A stretch of 29,571 nucleotides of DNA from a virus. The position numbers were made by a program, and so were the translations under genes. Position 1 is the first letter of the stretch. Every line of letters starts with the position of its first letter. Positions 3,670 through 15,041 of the stretch are shown in pieces. The notes beneath the pieces are model-generated. The model was not told where the DNA came from, ran no database searches, and was given only the letters and a program-made list of their open reading frames with translations. The stretch is from positions 1 through 29,571 of the IMG/VR virus record IMGVR_UViG_3300043803_001411, one strand, 5' to 3'.

Positions 3670-3699
3670 TTGACTTTTGACATAATTTTATGTTATACT
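3670..3699 (+). promoter_or_regulatory. Promoter of the lysozyme-like gene
   Basis: TTGACT (3670-3675), 18-bp spacer, extended -10 TGT-TATACT (3694-3699). A second TTGACA (3677-3682) lies exactly 11 bp from the -10, the spacing used by the TGTCAG boxes of the early region. The leader then has a small inverted repeat, AACACC (3707-3712) / GGTGTT (3719-3724), before the ribosome binding site AAGGAGG. Confidence 0.75.
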
Positions 3700-3746
3700 T
3701 GGTAGTAACACCTACCAGGGTGTTATTGTTTTCTAAGGAGGAAACT

Positions 3747-4310
3747 ATGATTAAATTTATCGAAAGAAACAAAGAGATCATTAGCACACTCAGTATCGTG
3801 GCACTTGTCAGTGTATTTTCTAATGCTGCTAATGCTACACCAGAACTAAGTACAAAGAACAACCTTAGCCTTGAACAGGCTCAGACAGTAGACACAACCT
3901 CGAAAGAGGTTTTTTTGGTTTCTAAGGAAAAAATGTTGGAGAGTTTTGCAAACAAGACATCTCTTACTGACTTAGAACTAAAGAAAATGCTATCCCTGGT
4001 TGGATTTAAGGGCCAGAACCTTGTTGAGGCTTGGGCTGTAGCAAAGAAAGAGTCTAATGGTCGCCCATTGGCTTTTAACGGAAATGAAAGCACTGGAGAC
4101 TCCTCATACGGAATATTCCAGATAAATATGATTGACTCGCTTGGCCCTGATCGTAGAGACAAGTTTGAGTTATCTGCAAATGCTGAACTTTTTAACCCAG
4201 TTTTAAATGCACAAATTGCACACCACATGAGCAACGGTGGAGAAAACTGGACTGCCTGGAAAGGCATGACCCCAAGAACTAAGTTCTGGATGTCTAAATT
4301 CCCTAAGTAG
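3747..4310 (+). CDS. Secreted lysozyme-like / lytic transglycosylase protein
   Basis: 187 aa from the ATG behind AAGGAGG; a longer in-frame extension upstream covers the promoter and is rejected. Residues 1-30 form a signal peptide (Lys/Arg start, hydrophobic STLSIVALVSVFSNAANA, likely cut after ANA). The C-terminal domain has AVAKKESNGRPLAFNGN, DSSYGIFQIN and LFNPVLNAQIAHHMSNGG, which is the SLT/goose-lysozyme pattern with a catalytic Glu in KKESNG. It should cut peptidoglycan glycan strands in the envelope. It is the only plus-strand gene in the late block and meets the epimerase gene tail to tail with a 1-bp gap. It could be a signal-arrest-type endolysin or a secreted superinfection/lysis factor. 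Confidence 0.85.
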   Translation: MIKFIERNKEIISTLSIVALVSVFSNAANATPELSTKNNLSLEQAQTVDTTSKEVFLVSKEKMLESFANKTSLTDLELKKMLSLVGFKGQNLVEAWAVAKKESNGRPLAFNGNESTGDSSYGIFQINMIDSLGPDRRDKFELSANAELFNPVLNAQIAHHMSNGGENWTAWKGMTPRTKFWMSKFPK

Positions 4311-4311
4311 G

Positions 4312-5343
4312 TTAGTGCTGGGGCTTTTCTATTTGATCTTTAATCCAAAGATAGGTATTTTTAATTCCTTCTTTTAAGGTCATAGAATAGTCCCAGCCTA
4401 ATTCTTTTCTAACCAAGTCATTATTGGAATTTCTTCCTCTAACACCTAGTGGGCCAGGAATATGGTTCTTATCTAAAACCTTACCCTCTATGCTACAAGC
4501 AATGTCAACCAACTGATTGATAGTAACCATCTCTTCAGATCCAATATTGACTGGACCCTTAAAGTCAGACTGCATAAGTCTTCTTGTTGCCTCTATGCAT
4601 TCATCTATGTATAAGAATGAACGAGTCTGTTCTCCGTCCCCCCAGATTTCTATAGAATCATCTGCTTTTATAACTTTTCGACACATTGCAGCAGGTGCTT
4701 TCTCTTTTCCACCGTCCCAAGTTCCTTCTGGGCCATATATGTTGTGGTATCTAGCAATTGCTACTGGTATCTTGTTATTTTTATTAAATGCCAAAAACAT
4801 TCTTTCACTAAATAACTTTTCCCATCCATACTCGCTATCAGGATCTGCAGGGTATGCATCAGATTCTTTAAGTCCAGGGTTATTAACATCTAACTGTTTG
4901 TAGTCTGGATACATGCAGGCAGAACTTGAATAAAATATTTTGGTCTTATTGATTTCATATTTTTCGTTAAGTCTTGACTGCGCTCTAAGAAGATTAAGAT
5001 TAATTAAAGCAGAGTTTTCCATAATTTGAGAATCGTTGTCTCCAGTAAAGATATATCCAGCACCACCCATATCTGCTGCAAATTGATAAATCTCGTCAAA
5101 CCCCGTAATTAACTTATATGGAATTTCATTGTAGAAGTTTCCCTGATATCCCTTAAACTGAATAGCCTTTTCAACATTTTCATAAACAGACAAATCTCTT
5201 TCGATAAACTCATCTGCCTGTGTTTCTGAAAAATCTGGATGCTTTAAATCAACACCTCTAACCCAGTATCCTTCTGACTTTAACCTATTTACCATGTGGC
5301 TACCTATAAAGCCACCTGCTCCTAGAACTAATGCTGTCTTCAT
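4312..5343 (-). CDS. gme: GDP-mannose 3,5-epimerase-like SDR enzyme
   Basis: 343 aa extended SDR protein. The NAD-binding GAGGFIG is at residues 8-14 and the catalytic Tyr/Lys pair (YGWEK) at 172/176. Family-specific motifs match plant-type GDP-mannose 3,5-epimerase closely: ADMGGAGYIF, SSACMYP with the acid/base Cys at 143, RYHNIYGPEGTW, GGKEKAPAAMCRK with the second catalytic Lys, WGDGEQTRSFLYIDE and HIPGPLGVRGRNS. The known family converts GDP-D-mannose to GDP-L-galactose (and GDP-L-gulose). Length is near the family norm minus the plant N-terminal extension, so it looks intact. GAGGAATAA precedes the ATG. It is the last gene of the modification cassette, and a nucleotide-sugar supply role fits the glycosyltransferase-like gene at 6407-7438. 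Confidence 0.9.
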   Translation of the reverse strand: MKTALVLGAGGFIGSHMVNRLKSEGYWVRGVDLKHPDFSETQADEFIERDLSVYENVEKAIQFKGYQGNFYNEIPYKLITGFDEIYQFAADMGGAGYIFTGDNDSQIMENSALINLNLLRAQSRLNEKYEINKTKIFYSSSACMYPDYKQLDVNNPGLKESDAYPADPDSEYGWEKLFSERMFLAFNKNNKIPVAIARYHNIYGPEGTWDGGKEKAPAAMCRKVIKADDSIEIWGDGEQTRSFLYIDECIEATRRLMQSDFKGPVNIGSEEMVTINQLVDIACSIEGKVLDKNHIPGPLGVRGRNSNNDLVRKELGWDYSMTLKEGIKNTYLWIKDQIEKPQH

Positions 5344-5385
5344 TTATTCCTCACAATTCTCTTAATCAAAGTATATAGCAATATT

Positions 5386-6336
5386 TTAAAGTATTGGCGA
5401 TATCTGTTTTTCCCAAAACTCCGATATATGCAGGTGCTTATGAAGCCCAGGGTGTGGCCAATGTGCGCCAGGCCCTTTACCAGATCTTCCATAATCATAT
5501 GCAATTTTGTGGTAATCGTAAGCATAATCAAATATTTCTGGATACTGATCCTTGTACTCTTTATGGCATCCCTGCCAGTTTATCATCTCATAATGAGGAG
5601 GCAAAGCATCAATATTTTTTGGATTAACAAGAAACTCAAAGTGTGGGGCAAACTCTTTTTTTGTTGTATCTGGAACATAGTGTCTAAAGTTATTTTTTAG
5701 AAACTCTTCTTGATCATCAGTCAGACCATTTGACCAACACGACCAGTATAGTTTTATGTTGTTTGATTCGCAAAATGCTTCTAACATTTTTATATGATCA
5801 AGGTTTTGATAGTAAACCCACTCATACGGGAGTATCTCTTCATAGTCCCAAGGGGCAGAAACTTTTGTCTTTTTTGGCTTATGATTAATAAACCACTCCT
5901 GCATTCTGTCTCCATCTGGCGAAACAAAATAAAATCTTTCGAAATTAGCAAAATGAGCAATAACAATTTCTGGCTTATATTGATATTGATGAATCATTCC
6001 AAAAAAACTTGAAACAAGTTTATTCGCAGCAGCACCCGAATAAGATATATTACCTATAGGAACCTCAATGCGAGAAGAGAGTAAGTCTGTCCACCTAAGA
6101 TCCTGTGGCATGCCTTGCCCAAGCGTTATAGAGCAGCCTAGAGCAACGATTGGTGGTTTTGTAGAAAACTCTATAGACCTTAAGTCATCACTGTTCCATT
6201 TATAGTCATATTCTGGCCTTGGTATTTCAGCATGAACTGCTAACACTTCTGTTGTGTGAGAATAGTCTTTTTTGGGATTGTTCTTATCAATTAGGTGATT
6301 TGGAATTACTCTTGGATTGAACATGTCAAATAGCAT
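5386..6336 (-). CDS. SGNH-hydrolase-like protein (cassette copy)
   Basis: 316 aa. Block I is IVALGCSITLGQGM with the presumed nucleophile Ser69, followed by W..LLSSRI and a Gly block (NISYSGAAANK). The block V region near the C-terminus is GAHWPHPGLHKHLH, which supplies candidate His residues. This pattern matches the SGNH/GDSL-type proteins found in phage structural or glycan-modification loci, which include esterases and O-acetyl transferases or hydrolases acting on sugars. Substrate is unknown. There is no signal peptide, so it would act in the cytoplasm, perhaps on fibre glycans. No strong ribosome binding site is seen; an internal start at Met5 is possible. A second, diverged member lies at 14154-15041. 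Confidence 0.75.
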   Translation of the reverse strand: MLFDMFNPRVIPNHLIDKNNPKKDYSHTTEVLAVHAEIPRPEYDYKWNSDDLRSIEFSTKPPIVALGCSITLGQGMPQDLRWTDLLSSRIEVPIGNISYSGAAANKLVSSFFGMIHQYQYKPEIVIAHFANFERFYFVSPDGDRMQEWFINHKPKKTKVSAPWDYEEILPYEWVYYQNLDHIKMLEAFCESNNIKLYWSCWSNGLTDDQEEFLKNNFRHYVPDTTKKEFAPHFEFLVNPKNIDALPPHYEMINWQGCHKEYKDQYPEIFDYAYDYHKIAYDYGRSGKGPGAHWPHPGLHKHLHISEFWEKQISPIL

Positions 6337-6406
6337 TAGTAGATAACATGCCCTTTCTTTATTTTTCTATATTTTCTCCACATTTTAAATTTATATACCA
6401 TTCTTT

Positions 6407-7438
6407 TTAACATATTGACTCTGGCCATTCTCTCCACCACATCTTTTTTCCGTTGTCAATAGGATATTCATTCCAAGAGTATGGCTTTCCAATTGCTTTT
6501 TTAGAATTATCAAAGAAATCCCATGTTTCAATTCCTTTTTGATGTCTATTTCTGTGTATATAGGCAGTATATGTGCTTCCAGGAGTTCCAACAAAATTTG
6601 TTGCATTATGCATTACTAAATTACAAATAAGTCCAAAAACTACCTCATCCTGGAATGGAAGTGCCATAAATTCATCTCTAAAATTGTTTACAATATATTC
6701 ATCTAGTAATATAAACCTATGCTTGTTTTCTTGAACCATCTGGTGACCTGGCTGGCATGTTGAAACAACTATTGGAAGGTTATTTTGTGCAAACCTATCT
6801 AGCCACGATTCAAACATTTCTTGCTTGGTTTCAAACATGTGAACATGATCCGACAACCTTAAATGCATGCCTTGAAATTGTCCAATAGAATAATATATCT
6901 TGTTTGCTAAGTCCACGTATTCTTTTTTAAACTTAACTGATGATATTGCCTTGTCAAGACTTTTGCTTCTGTCATAAAAAAATCTTGAGTACCATCCTAA
7001 AGTTAGTTTTAGATGAAGCGTTTTATCTAGAGGAAGTCTTTTTCTTCCTTCTGCAAAAAACTTTTCATCATCAGAAATTTCTGGCTTGTTACTATAATAA
7101 AAATTATTTAAAATATCATCAATTACAAATTCTTCCTGCTTAAAACTATCTATTTTTTCATCAATAAATATTAGATTTTCGTTAAAGTCTAGAAGGTCTA
7201 AAAGATGAGGATACTGCTCTGGATCTGTAAATCCTTCTCTTTGCTTGTTATAAAATCTACTTGGAGTAAAAATAGGAATAGTTTTAGTGTTATAAAGTTT
7301 TGGGTCTGCACCATACCTTGCGTAATGAACTATTGCTGGAGCGTTTAATTCATGAGAAAGACCAGATGCCAGTTCAAGGCTCATAACTTGATTAATTAAG
7401 CCTGTTGGATTATATAGTTGAAAAAATAACTTATTCAT
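6407..7438 (-). CDS. O-fucosyltransferase-like glycosyltransferase
   Basis: 343 aa. The N-terminal NPTGLINQVMSLELASGL (residues 10-27) resembles the 'G.fNQ...le.A...A' opening of GT-B fucosyltransferases. GQFQGMHLRLSDH (186-198) resembles the 'yigvHlR.gD' donor-site motif, and ATNFVGTPGSTYTAYIHRNR (279-298) the 'A..FiG...StFs..I...R' C-terminal motif of the GDP-fucose O-fucosyltransferase group. I therefore infer use of a GDP-sugar. The epimerase next door makes GDP-L-galactose, which differs from GDP-L-fucose by one hydroxyl, so a GDP-L-galactose donor is plausible. The ATG follows the stop of the oxygenase gene directly (TAG-ATG). Acceptor unknown. Confidence 0.7.
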   Translation of the reverse strand: MNKLFFQLYNPTGLINQVMSLELASGLSHELNAPAIVHYARYGADPKLYNTKTIPIFTPSRFYNKQREGFTDPEQYPHLLDLLDFNENLIFIDEKIDSFKQEEFVIDDILNNFYYSNKPEISDDEKFFAEGRKRLPLDKTLHLKLTLGWYSRFFYDRSKSLDKAISSVKFKKEYVDLANKIYYSIGQFQGMHLRLSDHVHMFETKQEMFESWLDRFAQNNLPIVVSTCQPGHQMVQENKHRFILLDEYIVNNFRDEFMALPFQDEVVFGLICNLVMHNATNFVGTPGSTYTAYIHRNRHQKGIETWDFFDNSKKAIGKPYSWNEYPIDNGKKMWWREWPESIC

Positions 7439-8029
7439 CTACATCATTTCTTGTTTTGGCTCTTCAGTGGTAATCGTTTTACGAATATCTGTGTATAGAT
7501 ATTGAGGTCCATGCTTAAAGAACCAATGGTCTGGTTCTGTATAAAAGAAAAATGCATTTGCTACTAAATTATTTTCTGGATTTGGAAACTCTTCTCTCCA
7601 GTGCTGTTGATCATTACCATATGAAAAAACTGCATCATTTTCTTCAGGCTGAAACTTTTCGCCCTCAACATAAAAATCCCAAGGAGTCTTATGAAAAATT
7701 GTATAGTTGATATGATATGTACAGGCGTTATCGTCAACATGTTTCCAGAGTCTTGCCTGATCTGTTTCATAAATACTAAGAAGACACCAAGAAGGAACTA
7801 GTGTGTTTGATTCAAACTCTTCTCTTGCTAAAGGAAGTAGCATTTCATGAAACCTTCTTAGGGGTTCAATGTTTTCTCCATGCGTTCCGTCCCATATTGC
7901 CCACTGGTGTCTTCCAAATCCTGGCTCAAATGTGTTTTTTTGTGTTGCCCACAAATGCATTGCTAAATTTTGCAAGTTTGTATGTTCGTGCTTTGGAAAT
8001 ATATTTTTTAATAAAAAAGCATCTTTCAT
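7439..8029 (-). CDS. 2OG-Fe(II) oxygenase, prolyl-hydroxylase-like
   Basis: 196 aa from ATG 8029, two bases after the stop of the upstream gene; an alternative ATG at 8053 adds eight residues. The iron-binding facial triad is visible as LWKHVDDNACTYH (His-x-Asp) and, 44 residues after that Asp, QQHWREEF (distal His, with an Arg two residues later that may help hold 2-oxoglutarate). The strands around it (DFYVEGEKFQPEENDAVFSY) match the double-stranded beta-helix of phage and P4H-type oxygenases. The family hydroxylates side chains such as proline using O2 and 2-oxoglutarate. Nearby genes encode Pro-rich and collagen-like fibres, so a fibre proline is a plausible substrate; this is inference. 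Confidence 0.8.
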   Translation of the reverse strand: MKDAFLLKNIFPKHEHTNLQNLAMHLWATQKNTFEPGFGRHQWAIWDGTHGENIEPLRRFHEMLLPLAREEFESNTLVPSWCLLSIYETDQARLWKHVDDNACTYHINYTIFHKTPWDFYVEGEKFQPEENDAVFSYGNDQQHWREEFPNPENNLVANAFFFYTEPDHWFFKHGPQYLYTDIRKTITTEEPKQEMM

Positions 8030-8031
8030 TT

Positions 8032-8259
8032 TTACCACTTCCCAATCGGACATGTTGCTGCTTCTAGTTTAGTCTTTAAGTGCATTAGGCATCCACACTT
8101 TTTGCACTGTTTAGTTAATTTTATTAGTTCTGGACAAGCCCTGCATATTGCCATTCTAGAAGATGCTAACTCCTCATTCTCTACATATTTGTTTGGGTCA
8201 AGCATGTGCCATGGCTTAGTCTCGCCTTGGGCTTGCTTCCATTCTTCCCACTTTGACAT
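8032..8259 (-). CDS. Small zinc-motif protein
   Basis: 75 aa from ATG 8259, chosen because AAGGAGAT lies just upstream; an in-frame start at 8316 is rejected. Sequence core: ICRACPELIKLTKQCKKCGC followed by KTKL..ATCPIGKW. The Cys pattern CxxC ... CxxCxC ... C is that of a small metal-binding protein known from many phage structural or modification loci. Function is unknown. It ends two bases before the preferred start of the oxygenase gene, so the two are likely co-translated. Confidence 0.8.
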   Translation of the reverse strand: MSKWEEWKQAQGETKPWHMLDPNKYVENEELASSRMAICRACPELIKLTKQCKKCGCLMHLKTKLEAATCPIGKW

Positions 8260-8272
8260 GTTCTGTATCTCC

Positions 8273-8686
8273 TTATATGTTAATAATGTTTGTACCGTTC
8301 CAAATATCACCGACATTTGCTGTCTGGCCTTCTGGAACTTTTATAAGTGTTGTTTCACTTTCGAATATTGATATTAGTTGTTCATTTTTTTCAGTATTTG
8401 GCTGTCCTATAATTGTAAGGATTATCATGTCGTCACAAATATACGAATACTGTCCTCTTATCGATCCCTCTGTAATTGATGTAGGATCTCCTCCGTTAAA
8501 CTTTGTACCGTCCCAAATAGCGCCACTTCTAACAGATGAGCCAAAGTCTGTTAAATTTTTGCCAACAATAGGGAGTCCACTTTCTAGTGCAAAATCAACT
8601 CTTTCTTTTTTTGCATCAGGAATATCTGTAAACACGCTAAATACATCCCAGGTGTCTTGACTATTTTTAACTATGCATGCGTACAT
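8273..8686 (-). CDS. Unknown protein, first gene of the modification cassette
   Basis: 137 aa with AAGGAG before the ATG. It carries two copies of an 'IW(D/N)GT' motif: GAIWDGTKFNGG in the middle and VGDIWNGTNIINI at the end. This motif often closes tail-fibre proteins, so the protein may be a fibre-tip or fibre-assembly partner. A -10-like TATACT lies about 30 bp upstream. Function not assignable. Confidence 0.65.
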   Translation of the reverse strand: MYACIVKNSQDTWDVFSVFTDIPDAKKERVDFALESGLPIVGKNLTDFGSSVRSGAIWDGTKFNGGDPTSITEGSIRGQYSYICDDMIILTIIGQPNTEKNEQLISIFESETTLIKVPEGQTANVGDIWNGTNIINI

Positions 8687-8719
8687 TTTTTCTCCTTATT
8701 GTTATATAAGTATATCATG

Positions 8720-10738
8720 CTACTCGTAGCAGTCTCCTGTTGAACAGTCACCAAATTCTCCACCGCATGTAGCGTCACCGCACACATAACCAGAAGATGC
8801 TGTAGGTGTTGGTGCTGTAGGTGTTGGTGCTGCAGGAACTGGTGTTGCAGGAACTGGTGTTGCAGGAACTGGTGTTGCAGGAACTGGTGTTGCAGGAACT
8901 GGCGACTCAGGGCATGTAAATGATTCATTTCCACAAGAGTCAACGTAAATAGTTACAGATCTTCCACAAGATGCACGATATTCAGTATAACTAGAAACAT
9001 TTGGTGTACATGCTACAGGTGTCACAGGTACAGGTGTTGGTGATGCAGGTACAGGTGTTGGTGATACAGGTACAGGTGTTGGTGATGCAGGTACAGGTGT
9101 TGGTGATGCAGGTACAGGTGTTGGTGAAGGACATGTGAATGTCTCATTTCCACAAGAGTCTACATAAATTGTAACTGGTCCACCACAAGATGCACGATAT
9201 TCAGTATAACTAGAAACATTTGGTGTACATGCTACTGGAGTTACAGGAACTGGGACTGGAACTGGTATTGGTGTTGGTGAAGGACATGTGAATGTCTCGT
9301 TTCCACAAGAGTCTACGTAAATTGTAACTGGTCCACCACAAGATGCTCTGTATTCTGTGTAGTTAGAAACATTTGGTGTACATGCTACAGGTGTTGCAGG
9401 TACAGGAGTAGGTGCTACAGGATTAGGACATTCAAATGTTTCATTTCCACAAGAGTCAACGTAAATTGTAACAACTGCATTACAAGATGCACGGTATTCA
9501 GTGTAACTGTCAACGTTTGGTGTACAAGCAACTGGGGTTGCAGGAACTGGTGTTGGTGTTGTAGGGACTGCAGGACAATTACTTGGCGCAGAAGGCATTG
9601 AAGTAGTTGAGCAAGAGTAATTTGTTCCGCCTCCGCCTGGAAGTCCAGAAACTACAGCAGCATATGCAGAACATGCGTTTCCAATGTCAGTAGTTACAAC
9701 ATTGTTTGCGTCAACTGTAAATTGTTCCTGTACTGGAGATCCTTGGTAACAATACGAAATGTATGCTGTTCCTGTTGTTGCTATTGGTGCGACAGGTGCG
9801 ACAGGTGTAGTAGGAGTTGGTCCTACAGGAGCAACTGGTGTTACAGGAACTGGTGTTGGTCCAACTGGTGTTGTAGGAATTGGTGTAGGTGCAACGGGTG
9901 CAACAGGTGTTGGTGTTGGTGATGTAGGAATAGGGGTTGGAGCAACTGGTACTGGTGTAGGTGCAGCAGGCACTGGTGTAGGTGCTACAGGAGTTGGAGT
10001 TGCAATATTTTCATAAACATCTCCATAAAAAACCCAAGCATCTGTTCCAACCTTTAACAAGGTTCCTTTACTATATTGTCCATCAAGATACATTCTTGCA
10101 CTTTTGCTATTAACTGTAACTCCGATTTCTGGAGTAATAGTTGTTGTTCCTGTTCCGTACTCAATTAAATCAATTTTATATCCAACCTGAAGCGCTGTTG
10201 TAGAATTTTTGGGGACTGTAAGTGTAATTGCTGATGACGTAGAAAGTAGTTGTGTGCTTCCTGCATATGATGGCAATAAAGAAAAATTAGATGTTTGTTC
10301 TAATACCGTTGATAAATAGTTAAGGTCAAACCTTTCATCTACAATGTTCCAGTCAATTCCGTCTCCAGCAAGTTCATTATAACCGCCTACTGCTCCAGCA
10401 ATAGCATTTGCAATACCTGAGTCTACATAAGACGTTGTTGCAAGTAGTGCTGTGTTTGGTATTCCGTGGACATCTAGAGTATCTGCATTATGTGTAGCAA
10501 TAGCAGCATTTCTATTTACTACCTCTTCTGCATCTGCATCTACAAGGTTCTGAAGGTGCTTTGCAATTGAGTCTTCCAAAAGAAGTGATGTGTTTGTATT
10601 TGCACCATCATAGGTGTAAGATCCATAGTGATAAAGTCTTAAGGCTGCCTGAATATCTGCTGCATCTGAAAGGCCAGGGATTTTGGTATTGAAAAGTCCA
10701 TCACCGTTAGGCGTGTTATCAATATTCTCTGCTGCCAC
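8720..10738 (-). CDS. Tail fibre with Pro-rich linkers and four Cys-rich modules
   Basis: 672 aa from GTG 10738 (AGAGGTGAT upstream). The N-terminal ~240 residues include LSDAADIQAALRLYHYGS, typical of attachment regions of myovirus-like fibres. Residues about 244-319 form a Pro-rich stalk (TPVPAPTPVP style). Then come four near-identical Cys modules at about 402-438, 450-487, 501-538 and 573-611, each of the form ACTPNVSSYTEYRASC - VTIYVDSCGNETFTCP, joined by Pro-rich linkers. The C-terminus is a short Cys-rich tip (CGDATCGGEFGDCSTGDCYE). Four Cys per module suggest disulphides that form after release, or metal binding. The linkers resemble Hyp-rich glycoprotein sequences of plants, which is why the neighbouring oxygenase and sugar genes are of interest. 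Confidence 0.85.
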   Translation of the reverse strand: MAAENIDNTPNGDGLFNTKIPGLSDAADIQAALRLYHYGSYTYDGANTNTSLLLEDSIAKHLQNLVDADAEEVVNRNAAIATHNADTLDVHGIPNTALLATTSYVDSGIANAIAGAVGGYNELAGDGIDWNIVDERFDLNYLSTVLEQTSNFSLLPSYAGSTQLLSTSSAITLTVPKNSTTALQVGYKIDLIEYGTGTTTITPEIGVTVNSKSARMYLDGQYSKGTLLKVGTDAWVFYGDVYENIATPTPVAPTPVPAAPTPVPVAPTPIPTSPTPTPVAPVAPTPIPTTPVGPTPVPVTPVAPVGPTPTTPVAPVAPIATTGTAYISYCYQGSPVQEQFTVDANNVVTTDIGNACSAYAAVVSGLPGGGGTNYSCSTTSMPSAPSNCPAVPTTPTPVPATPVACTPNVDSYTEYRASCNAVVTIYVDSCGNETFECPNPVAPTPVPATPVACTPNVSNYTEYRASCGGPVTIYVDSCGNETFTCPSPTPIPVPVPVPVTPVACTPNVSSYTEYRASCGGPVTIYVDSCGNETFTCPSPTPVPASPTPVPASPTPVPVSPTPVPASPTPVPVTPVACTPNVSSYTEYRASCGRSVTIYVDSCGNESFTCPESPVPATPVPATPVPATPVPATPVPAAPTPTAPTPTASSGYVCGDATCGGEFGDCSTGDCYE
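8830..8898. repeat. 15-bp tandem repeat coding TPVPA
   Basis: About 4-5 units of GGAACTGGTGTTGCA on the plus strand (minus strand TPVPA). Unit length keeps the frame, so slippage would change only stalk length. Confidence 0.8.
8906..9531. repeat. Four Cys-module repeats with Pro linkers
   Basis: Modules at about 8906-9018, 9124-9236, 9277-9389 and 9424-9531, each about 110 bp and highly similar. A roughly 21-bp repeat (plus strand GGTACAGGTGTTGGTGATGCA-like) fills about 9027-9124 between modules 3 and 4. Confidence 0.8.
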
Positions 10739-10757
10739 TATAAATCACCTCTTGCCA

Positions 10758-11348
10758 TTATACCACTGTAATAAATAAATGAACACGCTTTGGGCCAGCC
10801 ATGGGCACCCAGGTTGTTCCATTATATTCTACACCCTTTATTTCAAGTGGTAATGCTCTGATTGGATCGTCTATTACAGTATTAACTACAAGGCTAGTTG
10901 AAACAGGGCCCCCAGTTGGTGATGAAATAGAATACTGAATACTAAAGTTTGCAGATGTAAGGTTTACATCACTTGCAATTTCTGTTATATTAATTGGAGG
11001 TATTACAAGTGTACCGTTTGCTGCAGTAACATCCTTTACAGAAGAATAAAAGTTTGTTTTTAAACTAAGCATTTCTGTCCACTGTGTTCCATTTGGAGTT
11101 GCTATTTTTTGAAATACTGTTTTATATGTTGGTGAATATGGGTTGTAATCAATTGCAATATCTAGTGCCTGTATGCCAGTTGGCTGACTCATTATTGCAG
11201 CATTAACATTTGTATCTTGTGGATTTCCGTTTGACCCTACAATAATACTTCCACGATCACCTTGTGGTCCTATATCTAGGTCTAGACTTATGCTTTCTGG
11301 TCCACCAAAAACTGTTAGATCTTCATTGGATAAAAGTATATCTGCCAC
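10758..11348 (-). CDS. Virion protein with short Gly-rich motif, unknown
   Basis: 196 aa from GTG 11348, which overlaps the stop of the upstream gene by one base (TAGTG). The N-terminus holds LDIGPQGDRGS, a very short collagen-like piece, followed by a beta-rich body ending in HLFITVV. A similar C-terminal strand ends the collagen-like protein at 12669-13397 (IYVSVV). Probably a tail or baseplate component. Its own stop (TAA) overlaps a six-codon frame (ATG 10758 to TAG 10738) that in turn overlaps the GTG of the fibre gene, so ribosomes could be handed on. Confidence 0.7.
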   Translation of the reverse strand: MADILLSNEDLTVFGGPESISLDLDIGPQGDRGSIIVGSNGNPQDTNVNAAIMSQPTGIQALDIAIDYNPYSPTYKTVFQKIATPNGTQWTEMLSLKTNFYSSVKDVTAANGTLVIPPINITEIASDVNLTSANFSIQYSISSPTGGPVSTSLVVNTVIDDPIRALPLEIKGVEYNGTTWVPMAGPKRVHLFITVV

Positions 11349-12661
11349 TATTCTGCTCCAAATGGTGTTGGAGTTGGTGAAGGTGTTGGTGATGGCTCAG
11401 CAATTGGAGAGGCAGTTGGAGTTTCCCCTATTGGTGTTGGTGATGGAGTTGGAATTGCAATAGGTGCTGGTACTGGTGTTGGAGATGCAATAGGTGCTGG
11501 TACTGGTGTTGGAGATGCAATAGGTGCTGGTACTGGTGTTGGTGCTATTGGGGCAGGAGCAACAGGAGTTGGTCCTGGTGTTGATGTTTGAGGAAATACT
11601 GCAGTAACAATTCCTGAGTGAGCAGAGTGTGTAACTTCTTCTGCTCCTTGAACTGTAAAGAAATTTGCAGAAACTCCATACAAAGTATAATCTTTAGACT
11701 CTGGGTCTTCGTTGTCCTTAAGTCTTGGAGCAAGGGTTATTGTTGCCACATATGTAACTCCTGGCTGAAAGTTTCCAGTAAATGTTGTGTCTTTTCCATT
11801 AACTCTTTTTTTCCAAACAGTTGATCCAGAGAATTGAGTATTTGTTTCAACACTTGAGTCTGGCACTAATCCTGAAACTGGAATTGTTACTCCAGAAATT
11901 GATGCGTTGCTTATTGTTGTTGCCGTTACTGGAAATGTTGCAGTAACAACTCCTGAGTTTGCAGTATTTGTAGAGTCAGCATTTTCTACTGAGAAAAAAT
12001 TTGATGGAATGCCATTTAGAGTGTATCCGCTAGACTGCCTTGGTGTTACATTTATTGTTGCTATGTAGACTGTATTTGAAGCAAATCTTGATGGGCTTCC
12101 AGACCAAGTGACTGTTCCAGAGTATTCTGGTGTATCTATAATTGTGGCTACTGGAACTGCGCCTGTTACTGGTCTTGTTAATACAAGTCTTCCATTTGAC
12201 AAAGGTGTTATTGGGCTTGTTGAGGCTGTTGCACCAGTAACCTGATCTGTTATTGTTATTTTTCCTGTTAAAAGAGTTTGAACTGTCTCATAATTGTTAA
12301 GCGATCCAGGTACAGTAGATGGTTTTCTAACTTCTACATCATAAACATACTCTGTTCCAGCAACCAAGGTTGTAGAGTCTGAAGGCCTTATAGCACAAAC
12401 AACATGAGTTCCATCGTCAGACACACGAGCATAACCTTTGATAGGAACTCCAGAAGAGCCACGAACTGTTGAAATTGTAAACTGAGCACTATCATACAAA
12501 GCGGATGACTCTGTAAAATAATCATCAACATTTGCAAAATTTGTTGGAATTTGGTATTGGCTTAAGTCAAAAACCGTTCCATCGTTCTTTTTCGGGTAGA
12601 TACGAAATTCAAAGGTGTCACCCTTATAGTAATTGAAGTCATATATTGATGGAAATGCCAT
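11348..12661 (-). CDS. Pro-rich adhesin-like virion protein with two Ig-like repeats
   Basis: 437 aa. The N-terminal ~140 residues carry the KGDT version of the baseplate-adaptor module ([20 protein letters not shown] ... [10 protein letters not shown] ... [14 protein letters not shown]). Two tandem Ig-like beta repeats follow. The first has TVTWSGSP ... YIATINVTP ... [17 protein letters not shown] ... SGVVTATFP; the second has STVWKKRV ... [10 protein letters not shown] ... [17 protein letters not shown] ... SGIVTAVFP. This matches bacterial surface-protein repeats of the 'YTL.GV..NFFTV.GA' type. The last ~75 residues are Pro-rich ([10 protein letters not shown] repeats). An extended -10, TGG-TATAAT, lies 6 nt before the ATG, and the TAA of the upstream collagen-like gene is embedded in it. 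Confidence 0.8.
11461..11540. repeat. 30-bp tandem repeat coding [10 protein letters not shown]
   Basis: Two full and one partial copy of a 30-bp unit beginning TAGGTGCTGGTACTGGTGTT on the plus strand. In frame, at the Pro-rich C-terminus of the 437-aa protein. Confidence 0.85.
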
Positions 12662-12667
12662 GGTTTT

Positions 12668-12673
12668 ATTATA
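12668..12673 (-). promoter_or_regulatory. Extended -10 of a leaderless late promoter (for 11348-12661)
   Basis: TGG-TATAAT, 6 nt before the ATG at 12661; no -35. The stop codon TAA of 12669-13397 lies inside the hexamer. Confidence 0.6.
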
Positions 12674-13397
12674 CCACGCTGACGTATATAGATTTCATAA
12701 TTACTGATGCATCAAAGTCTGTACGTATTTGAGGCACTGCCCCACTACCCCAAATTTTTTGATTTTCTATAAAGATTTGCTGAGTAACTGTTATTGGATA
12801 TGTGTGCTGATACTTTAGAGACCCTATAAACTGAGAAACATCTAGATCACCGTTAGTAGAGTAGGTTCTAACCCAAACCTCGGTGTTGCTGCTATGCGTT
12901 GTTAGTTCAAAACTATAGGTTATGAATACTTGAGCACCCTCTTGAAGTCCCCTGAAATTAAATGCTCTTGCATGGTCATTCCATAATGAAGTACAGCCCT
13001 TTGGTAAATATTTTTCATTTGATCTTCCTTCAGATAACAAGAAAGTGCTAACCCAACCATCTTCTCCTTCTGAGATGCCAAGTTTAAAAGGTTTCTCAAC
13101 TTTGTTATGATAAGAAGCCCATCCTGCTTGCTGTCCTGAAGAGGATAGAGAACTTAGACCGTCTTTGCCTGGCGATCCTTGTGCTCCTTTTGGTCCCGAT
13201 TTTCCTTCTGGGCCTTGAGGTCCTTCTTTTCCATCTTTACCGTCTCTACCTGCGGGTCCCTGTGGTCCAACTGGGCCAGGGACTGGAAGAAATGAAAGAG
13301 AATTATCTGTAGAATGAGATGCCTGACTTTGTTCTACTTGTGCAGCATAAGAAGATTTTTTTACACCAGGAAAATCCATAGATTTAGAAGCAGCCAT
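12669..13397 (-). CDS. Collagen-like tail fibre protein
   Basis: 242 aa. Residues 41-80 are thirteen Gly-X-Y triplets ([20 protein letters not shown], then [20 protein letters not shown]), a collagen-like triple helix. A Ser-rich hinge and a beta-rich C-terminal domain of about 155 residues follow. That domain probably trimerises and may bind the receptor or contribute to the baseplate. Phage collagen-like segments usually form trimeric stalks. Pro occurs in both X and Y positions, so it is a possible substrate for the 2OG oxygenase at 7439-8029. A TGA-GATAAT box lies 6 nt before the ATG and there is no Shine-Dalgarno. Confidence 0.85.
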
Positions 13398-14153: not shown

Positions 14154-15041
14154 ATGAGTAAAGTTTATCATGAATATCTTTCTGGCAATCTTATTGGCCC
14201 AACAATAAGTATGAACATGGATATAAATAAAAACACGACCTATTTGCAAGTATGTCCAGACTGCTCCCACGATGAGTGCCTACCAGAAAGAGGTCGATCA
14301 AATGAAAAATCAAAAAGTACAAATTCTTTAGATCCAAAAATTTCTTACAGGATAAACAACTTCGGTTATAGGTCTGATGATTTTGATATAAGAGATTCTG
14401 AATCTAATTTTTTATATAGCGGTTGCTCTAATACTTTTGGTATAGGGGTACCGCTTGAATCTATATGGGCCCATCAATTAAACTCTTTCTTAGGTGGAGA
14501 AAAATTTATAAGTTTGGGAATTAACAGTGGGTCTTACAAAACAATTGTTTATGATGTTTTTAATTACATAAGAAACTTCGGAAAACCAAAAGGTGTATTT
14601 TTACTTTTTCCAAACATTGAAAGACAAATAGTTTTTCTTGGCAATAACGATAAAAATGTTAATATTTTTGTGCAAGTTTACAGAAATACTTCTTCAAAAA
14701 TTTCAGAGGTCATTACAGAAAAATCAAATATGTTTGAGTTTTATAACACAGTCAAAATGCTAGAAGACTATCTTTTTGAATTAGGTATACCACTTGTATG
14801 GACAACATGGGATATGGCGCTAGATAAGAAGATATCATTGACCAAGGGATTTAATAACTATGCCAGCCTTGACAATTTTGATATTTATAACAAAACACAA
14901 AACGCCCCTATACCAGAAAAACTAGATAACGAGTATTGGAATGTAGCAAGAGACTCTTCGCACTTAGGATCAAAATATCATTTGTACTATGCGTCAATAC
15001 TTTATGAAGAATGGAAAAGAAAATATGAAAAAAATAATTAA
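14154..15041 (+). CDS. SGNH-hydrolase-like protein (second copy)
   Basis: 295 aa with AGGAG before the ATG. Block I: FLYSGCSNTFGIGV with candidate nucleophile Ser92. A Gly block follows (ISLGINSGSYKTI), and block V is ARDSSHLGSKYH with the expected Asp267-x-x-His270. The N-terminal third includes CPDCSHDEC (34-42), a possible metal site absent from the other copy. Order and spacing of blocks match 5386-6336, but the two proteins share little else. Function could be a glycan esterase or acyltransferase; substrate unknown. Confidence 0.75.
   Translation: MSKVYHEYLSGNLIGPTISMNMDINKNTTYLQVCPDCSHDECLPERGRSNEKSKSTNSLDPKISYRINNFGYRSDDFDIRDSESNFLYSGCSNTFGIGVPLESIWAHQLNSFLGGEKFISLGINSGSYKTIVYDVFNYIRNFGKPKGVFLLFPNIERQIVFLGNNDKNVNIFVQVYRNTSSKISEVITEKSNMFEFYNTVKMLEDYLFELGIPLVWTTWDMALDKKISLTKGFNNYASLDNFDIYNKTQNAPIPEKLDNEYWNVARDSSHLGSKYHLYYASILYEEWKRKYEKNN

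Follow-up and report, generated by a model that had tools for sequence, protein, structure and literature searches.

What does a bacteriophage do with a prolyl-hydroxylase-like enzyme? Such genes are abundant in aquatic phages, and according to a 2022 survey the viral use of prolyl 4-hydroxylase (P4H) 'remains cryptic' (PMC9301287); PHD-like genes are also known from marine phages (PMC12774648). We analysed the IMG/VR virus record IMGVR_UViG_3300043803_001411, of which positions 1-29,571, the whole stretch of 29,571 bp, are called the window here. The list of open reading frames (ORFs) of the window has one minus-strand gene run at 4312-13397, extending from fibre genes through a GDP-mannose 3,5-epimerase gene, in which a 2-oxoglutarate (2OG)-Fe(II) oxygenase and sugar enzymes accompany a fibre protein with x-Pro (xP) repeats. 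We consider it rather probable that this run is a module by which prolines of xP stalks are hydroxylated and the resulting hydroxyproline (Hyp) then receives a sugar, here of the GDP-L-galactose type. The genes of the run and the gene that bounds it are the following:

12669-13397, minus strand: collagen-like (Gly-X-Y) fibre protein, 242 amino acids (aa); PF01391 (E=1.2e-7) and tail-fibre PHROGs
11348-12661, minus strand: 437-aa virion-type protein with a Pro-rich C-terminus (PTPVPAPIA...); 51 Pro, 24 of them within 60 aa; phrog_1084
10758-11348, minus strand: U196, a conserved 196-aa tail-region protein, kept in relatives; left boundary of the variable slot
8720-10738, minus strand: 672-aa Pro-rich fibre; 97 Pro, 43 overlapping xPxP; tail/virion PHROGs (E 1e-7 to 2e-10)
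8273-8686, minus strand: U137, a 137-aa protein of unassigned function, recurrent in the slot; weak match to phrog_14370
8032-8316, minus strand: 94-aa zinc-ribbon protein (DUF6171-like); PF19668 (E=1.5e-5), phrog_13558
7439-8053, minus strand: 2OG-Fe(II) oxygenase with a PHD/P4H-like fold by Foldseek; HxD...H invariant
6407-7438, minus strand: glycosyltransferase with an O-fucosyltransferase fold (FUT), from a structure model
5386-6336, minus strand: SGNH-like protein; GCSxT and H-P-G-x-H invariant, weak PDB profile matches to SGNH esterases
4312-5343, minus strand: GDP-mannose 3,5-epimerase (GME)
3690-4310, plus strand: lysozyme/transglycosylase-like gene, conserved; right boundary of the slot

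An ORF check recovered every gene that a preliminary description of this DNA had named, in place and on the minus strand. That description had the enzymes surrounded by fibre genes; the fibre genes all lie upstream, on a single side, and downstream of the enzyme genes come the plus-strand lysozyme-like gene and then further tail genes. The zinc-ribbon and U137 genes, absent from it, sit between the genes of the Pro-rich fibre and the oxygenase.

Enzymes follow the repeat type of the adjacent fibre

We compared 86 distinct related loci in which the slot is complete; by their fibre they fall into xP (47), (A)VTP (14), FTP (9), low-Pro (10) and other Pro-rich (6) loci. The co-occurrence search across related phages that the preliminary description had proposed places the 2OG family at 40 of the 47 xP-repeat loci and at 1 of the 39 others (Fisher p=4e-16), a result that is stable at thresholds from 5 to 30. 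As a control that avoids conditioning on the cassette, relatives were fetched by way of U148 and the lysozyme-like gene (LYS206), both neutral genes of the backbone. These relatives number 500 or more, and at the loci among the matches listed (n=55) the 2OG family was found in 16/22 with xP repeats and 0/33 others (p=2.5e-9). Independent contrasts were made as maximal sets of phylogenetically independent pairs on trees of four neighbouring genes; the member with the 2OG family had more xP repeats in 24/28, 21/22, 20/21 and 18/20 pairs. A recognised or likely glycosyltransferase is present at all 47 xP loci and at 8 of the 39 others; ORFs were called mechanically, and some of the likely transferases were recognised solely by size class and neighbours. 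GME occurs in 34 of 35 loci with a fucosyl-type transferase and in 2 of 51 without one (p=2e-20), as expected if GME makes the donor for these transferases: FUT is always accompanied by GME (31/31), and transferases of family GT60 seldom are (2/14).

The (A)VTP loci are a different pairing of repeat and enzymes, mostly a P4H-type oxygenase and a cupin-like protein (HxD...H-like motif), and they usually lack a recognised transferase. Fibres of (AVTP)n or (VTP)n with this pairing were seen at L174, L181, L190, L200, L215, L216 and L294. At FTP-repeat fibres the oxygenase is missing altogether (0/9). Plain Pro-richness showed no significant association with the P4H-type gene alone; the covariation signal is the repeat type, not plain Pro-richness. 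The collagen-like fibre, which the preliminary description had included among the substrates, was ruled out as a linked partner of the cassette, being present in 22 of 23 loci that lack any 2OG/P4H oxygenase and in 46/46 that have one. What stands of the earlier proposal is that the oxygenase and the glycosyltransferases follow the adjacent Pro-rich fibre, and GME the fucosyl-type transferases.

The 672-aa fibre begins with an N-terminal tail/virion domain, after which (TPVPA)-type xP spacers alternate with Cys-containing beads of ~45 aa; its prolines stand mostly in TP, VP and AP contexts, in the spacers between beads. We propose this fibre as the substrate of the cassette, and the 437-aa protein with the Pro-rich C-terminus as a possible second one. 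Separately, the C-termini of some Pro-rich fibres (L047:30-1931, L115:70-1482) resemble, by eye, Hint (intein/hedgehog) autoprocessing domains.

A recurrent module with exchangeable parts

Scans of viral_contigs recovered the oxygenase at 63 loci, FUT at 48 and SGNH at 80. Dozens of distinct contigs keep one gene order, from the Pro-rich fibre through zinc ribbon, oxygenase, FUT, SGNH and GME to the lysozyme-like gene, and the gene run is a recurrent module, beyond chance. No near relatives were found by DNA among cultured phages, and the relatives with the full module are all uncultivated contigs. The module also recurs in other structural surroundings: in L135 and kin it follows a 924-aa ORF and a phrog_5313 protein of 430 aa, and in L164 it lies near a terminase gene.

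The sugar part is exchanged among relatives. GT60 (PF11397, E=4e-22 in L038), which is found in relatives such as L038 and L218 and not in the window, takes the place of FUT/GME beside the same oxygenase; other relatives have carbamoyltransferase, sulfotransferase, GT61, HtrL/YibB, FkbM methyltransferase or nucleotidyltransferase genes. Some slots have carbamoyltransferases, NodU-type at L124:10933-12375 and other loci, and sulfotransferases, which suggests that the sugar is decorated further. Often a second oxygenase of the canonical P4H type (PF13640, E=2e-17) is added in related loci as a separate gene. Since the 2OG fold is permissive and the window oxygenase adjoins sugar enzymes, it could act on the sugar or its nucleotide rather than on a protein residue; we regard this as very improbable, because the oxygenase stays when the sugar enzymes change (FUT/GME, GT60, or a 259-aa ORF with a nucleotidyltransferase).

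Some other arrangements were seen in passing. One phage has a radical-SAM-like protein (CxxxCxxC, by eye) within the modification slot (L233:3456-4310). At L178:5097-11786 a second Pro-rich protein with PFFPPFFPP repeats is followed by several consecutive P4H-like oxygenase genes, and comparable arrays occur in L198, L199, L231 and L312. In an isolated cyanophage, Synechococcus phage ACG-2014f (L326), collagen-repeat, group-1 glycosyltransferase and P4H-like genes lie close together, and this phage is a possible culturable analogue.

The oxygenase

The 2OG-Fe(II) oxygenase with an HxD...H motif of the preliminary description is confirmed by the triad of this superfamily, H105-x-D107 and H151, which is invariant in 27 aligned sequences, and by its fold. 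With Foldseek, the model (pLDDT 89) matches PHD2 (3oui, E=1.4e-7), Dictyostelium PHD, bacterial P4H (4j25) and vCPH (5c5u). From this modelled fold we propose that the enzyme is a fibre prolyl hydroxylase. Its profile gave no direct sequence match in the PDB, a relative of it matches PF13532 weakly, and in GTDB genomes no bacterial relatives of the oxygenase or of FUT were confirmed. The oxygenase falls in a phage family that PHROGs labels 'ferrochelatase' (phrog_2954). This label looks wrong, because the phrog_2954 member of cyanophage S-SM1 is also a fold neighbour of the window oxygenase; the S-SM1 'ferrochelatase' proteins are apparently relatives of the window enzyme and themselves 2OG oxygenases. 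They stand (L334:7265-8381) in an array with other oxygenases, one of them called leprecan.

The sugar enzymes and the zinc ribbon

The epimerase identity is secure at the level of sequence, as first described: a phmmer search of the PDB returned the plant (Arabidopsis-type) enzyme 2c59 at E=3.7e-96, and the active-site segments SSAC, YGxEK, EKAPAA and VRGRNS are aligned. GME is also common in cyanophages outside the module, standing among sugar-metabolism genes in S-SM2, for example. Such company would fit a reading of the cassette as auxiliary metabolic genes whose products change the polysaccharide or the nucleotide-sugar pools of the host, for receptor masking or energy, unrelated to the virion. 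The genes here lie within a run of tail genes and covary with the fibre repeats, however, and we consider this reading quite improbable.

FUT matched no Pfam family, and its profile found POFUT2 at E=0.003. The AlphaFold2 model (pLDDT 86.5) is closest to POFUT2, NodZ, POFUT1 and FUT8 (best E=9e-8, probability 1.00), which account for the top 40 fold matches; plant FUT1 is likewise among the fold matches, and H192-x-R194 is invariant. At the fold level only, these matches place FUT in the GT-B O-fucosyltransferase superfamily (GT23/GT65/GT68) and bear out the O-fucosyltransferase-like enzyme noticed earlier. Its fold matches are known GDP-fucose enzymes. Because GDP-L-galactose differs from GDP-L-fucose by its 6-hydroxyl, the GME product could reasonably be used by a transferase of the fucosyl type.

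Neither FUT nor the SGNH protein had a tblastn match among 50,697 phage records. The GxS and His-containing blocks of the SGNH-like protein are invariant, but the Asn of block III varies, so that 'SGNH hydrolase' is only a probable assignment; the protein is possibly a sugar esterase or acyltransferase. Upstream of the tail run, at 14154-15041 of the window, the plus strand has a second SGNH-like gene.

The zinc ribbon is a nearly constant companion of the module. It is fused to GT60 in L197:7397-8605, L243:6153-7355 and L245:1480-2676, which suggests that it is a recruitment domain for modifying enzymes. A search of the PDB with the fusion returned nothing useful. The zinc ribbon alone was rejected as a marker of the module, since Rhizobium, Xanthomonas and S-IOM18 records have zinc ribbon or GT60 without a Pro-rich neighbour.

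Hydroxyproline or threonine as the proposed sugar site

The GlcNAc-transferase that acts on the hydroxyproline of Skp1 belongs to GT60 (PMC6939170). In the L137 fibre, whose nearly Ser/Thr-free repeat lies at 6658-7239, 27 consecutive xP units contain no Ser/Thr (13 Ser+Thr in 193 aa) and L133 is similar, and both loci keep two oxygenases, FUT and GME; the repeats of L135 and L122 are likewise nearly free of Ser/Thr, with oxygenase(s), FUT and GME. Of the transferase loci, just three lack an oxygenase, L197, L243 and L245, and their repeats have 92-96% Ser/Thr before Pro. Because Ser/Thr-poor fibres keep the cassette and oxygenase-less transferase loci are rich in Ser/Thr, we favour, by a little more than even chances, a sugar on Hyp. 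Glycosylation and hydroxylation are separable, since three GT60 loci have no oxygenase and the (A)VTP loci mostly have an oxygenase and no recognised transferase.

Several observations weigh against hydroxylation and glycosylation of proline, some of them pointing to threonine. Thr occupies about half of the xP positions in most loci, and as it so often precedes Pro, Thr glycosylation is a real and serious rival, which we nevertheless judge unlikely. FUT or GT60 would then put sugar on the Thr of TP repeats, in the manner of POFUTs, T. cruzi GT60 and actinobacterial PT-linker glycosylation, and the oxygenase would hydroxylate Pro (or another residue) merely to stiffen the stalk or tune the acceptor. 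POFUT1/2, fold relatives of FUT, act on Ser/Thr. The three loci L197, L243 and L245 have GT60 on Thr-Pro repeats and no oxygenase, and GT60 includes enzymes that can act on Thr (PMC9472816). Thr as acceptor does not account for the full cassette at the nearly Ser/Thr-free fibres of L137 and L133, nor for an oxygenase that is kept in most xP loci regardless of the transferase.

Other such observations concern the oxygenase and the locus as a whole. AlkB-type folds match the oxygenase nearly as well as prolyl hydroxylases do in Foldseek; its sequence falls below Pfam thresholds, is assigned to no Pfam family and does not place it among the P4H enzymes. A distant relative (28% identity) belongs to cyanophage S-SM1, where no Pro-rich fibre lies near it. 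Relatives of the cassette in phages without Pro-rich fibres, which the preliminary description had named as contrary evidence, thus turn up in part and at long range, as this oxygenase and as cyanophage GME. In FTP-repeat phages the oxygenase is missing, and FUT and GME lie at a different place in the tail region; there the two may target another fibre. The displaced pair lies between U179 and U136 in L204, L205, L221-L223 and L271.

Finally, fibre and enzymes are adjacent, and exchange in blocks inflates covariation, which could partly be linkage. Taken to its end, this would mean a hypervariable slot swapped as a block, whose enzymes target another virion protein or the host surface. The slot does turn over fast compared with the backbone genes (63 gene-set changes among 82 loci, on one tree). 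But the match of enzymes to fibre persists over many enzyme combinations, backbones and structural backgrounds, and pure linkage leaves the absence of the oxygenase at FTP and low-Pro fibres unexplained; we regard linkage only as improbable. Despite block exchange, the independent contrasts and the Ser/Thr-poor repeats argue for function.

Proposed mechanism

Starting from the observed gene identities, folds, synteny and covariation of oxygenase and transferases with repeat type, we propose the following steps. The oxygenase would hydroxylate prolines of the fibre at 8720-10738, in its extended xP repeats, and perhaps of the protein at 11348-12661 too. The epimerase would make GDP-L-galactose or GDP-L-gulose out of host GDP-mannose, FUT would move this sugar onto Hyp, and a possible role of the SGNH protein is to trim or acylate it. 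The product would be a stiff, sugar-coated stalk between Cys-containing beads, resembling plant glycoproteins and plausibly serving reach, stability, shielding or receptor contact. Relatives would change the sugar chemistry (GT60, GT61, carbamoyl-, sulfo- and methyltransferases) and keep the oxygenase matched to the repeat type. It is very likely that the enzymes act on the fibre and likely that Pro is the residue hydroxylated; an L-galactose-type sugar is fairly probable. As for the broader reading, we give an even chance to phage Hyp-O-glycosylation in which the repeat type dictates the oxygenase, interchangeable transferases put different sugars on Hyp, and the sugar-coated polyproline II (PPII) stalks, like those of plant arabinogalactan proteins (AGP)/extensin, evolve for host range or shielding.

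Comparison with known systems

Plant hydroxyproline-rich glycoproteins (AGP/extensin) share with the phage locus the xP repeats (AP, TP, VP), PPII-type rods and a P4H-fold enzyme; plants, in contrast, use the secretory pathway and plant-type transferases. Plant GME is homologous over its whole length, active-site segments included, but its role in plants lies in the synthesis of ascorbate and cell wall. The viral P4H of PBCV-1 (vCPH) is among the fold matches of the oxygenase, and we know of no case in which it is coupled to transferase genes of this kind next to a fibre gene. In the Skp1 pathway of Dictyostelium and Toxoplasma (PhyA and the GT60 enzyme Gnt1), a cytosolic 2OG prolyl hydroxylase is likewise followed by a transferase acting on Hyp, Dictyostelium PHD is a top fold match, and GT60 replaces FUT in relatives of the window. 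That pathway modifies one Pro of a eukaryotic regulatory protein, however, and the phage has long fibre repeats and, in the window, an O-fucosyltransferase-fold enzyme with GME instead of GT60.

Mimivirus, through its collagen lysyl hydroxylase/glucosyltransferase (as cited in PMC8968730), also hydroxylates and glycosylates its own structural protein, but on Lys in collagen, with a single bifunctional enzyme and in a eukaryotic giant virus. In mycobacteriophages (Freeman 2023, as cited in PMC12619734) phage glycosyltransferases modify virion proteins of an actinophage; there the sites are C-termini of capsid and tail-tube proteins, and neither a proline hydroxylase nor a Pro-rich fibre is involved. 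The open-access literature, with subscription papers and preprints outside this scope, yielded no phage system in which a Pro-rich fibre is combined with both a transferase and an enzyme resembling prolyl hydroxylases, in line with the preliminary description. To our knowledge, this would be the first phage to hydroxylate and glycosylate structural proteins with enzymes that the virus itself encodes.

Host and significance

A cyanophage origin was rejected. The 13 large related contigs contain no psbA-type photosystem reaction-centre gene, 12 of them have WhiB genes, and a DUF932-type gene is nearest to those of Streptomyces phages. For these reasons the virus is probably an actinophage, judging by gene content, and we infer a freshwater host.

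For phage prolyl-hydroxylase-like enzymes the locus offers a concrete candidate substrate, the adjacent xP-repeat fibre, and the question of their use becomes testable. If the reading is true, the relatives form a natural library of matched sets of repeat, oxygenase and transferase, usable as glycoprotein tools. Glycosylation of Hyp is a type of decoration known from plants and protists; if the Hyp of these fibres carries a sugar, hydroxyproline-linked glycosylation would reach the viruses of bacteria.

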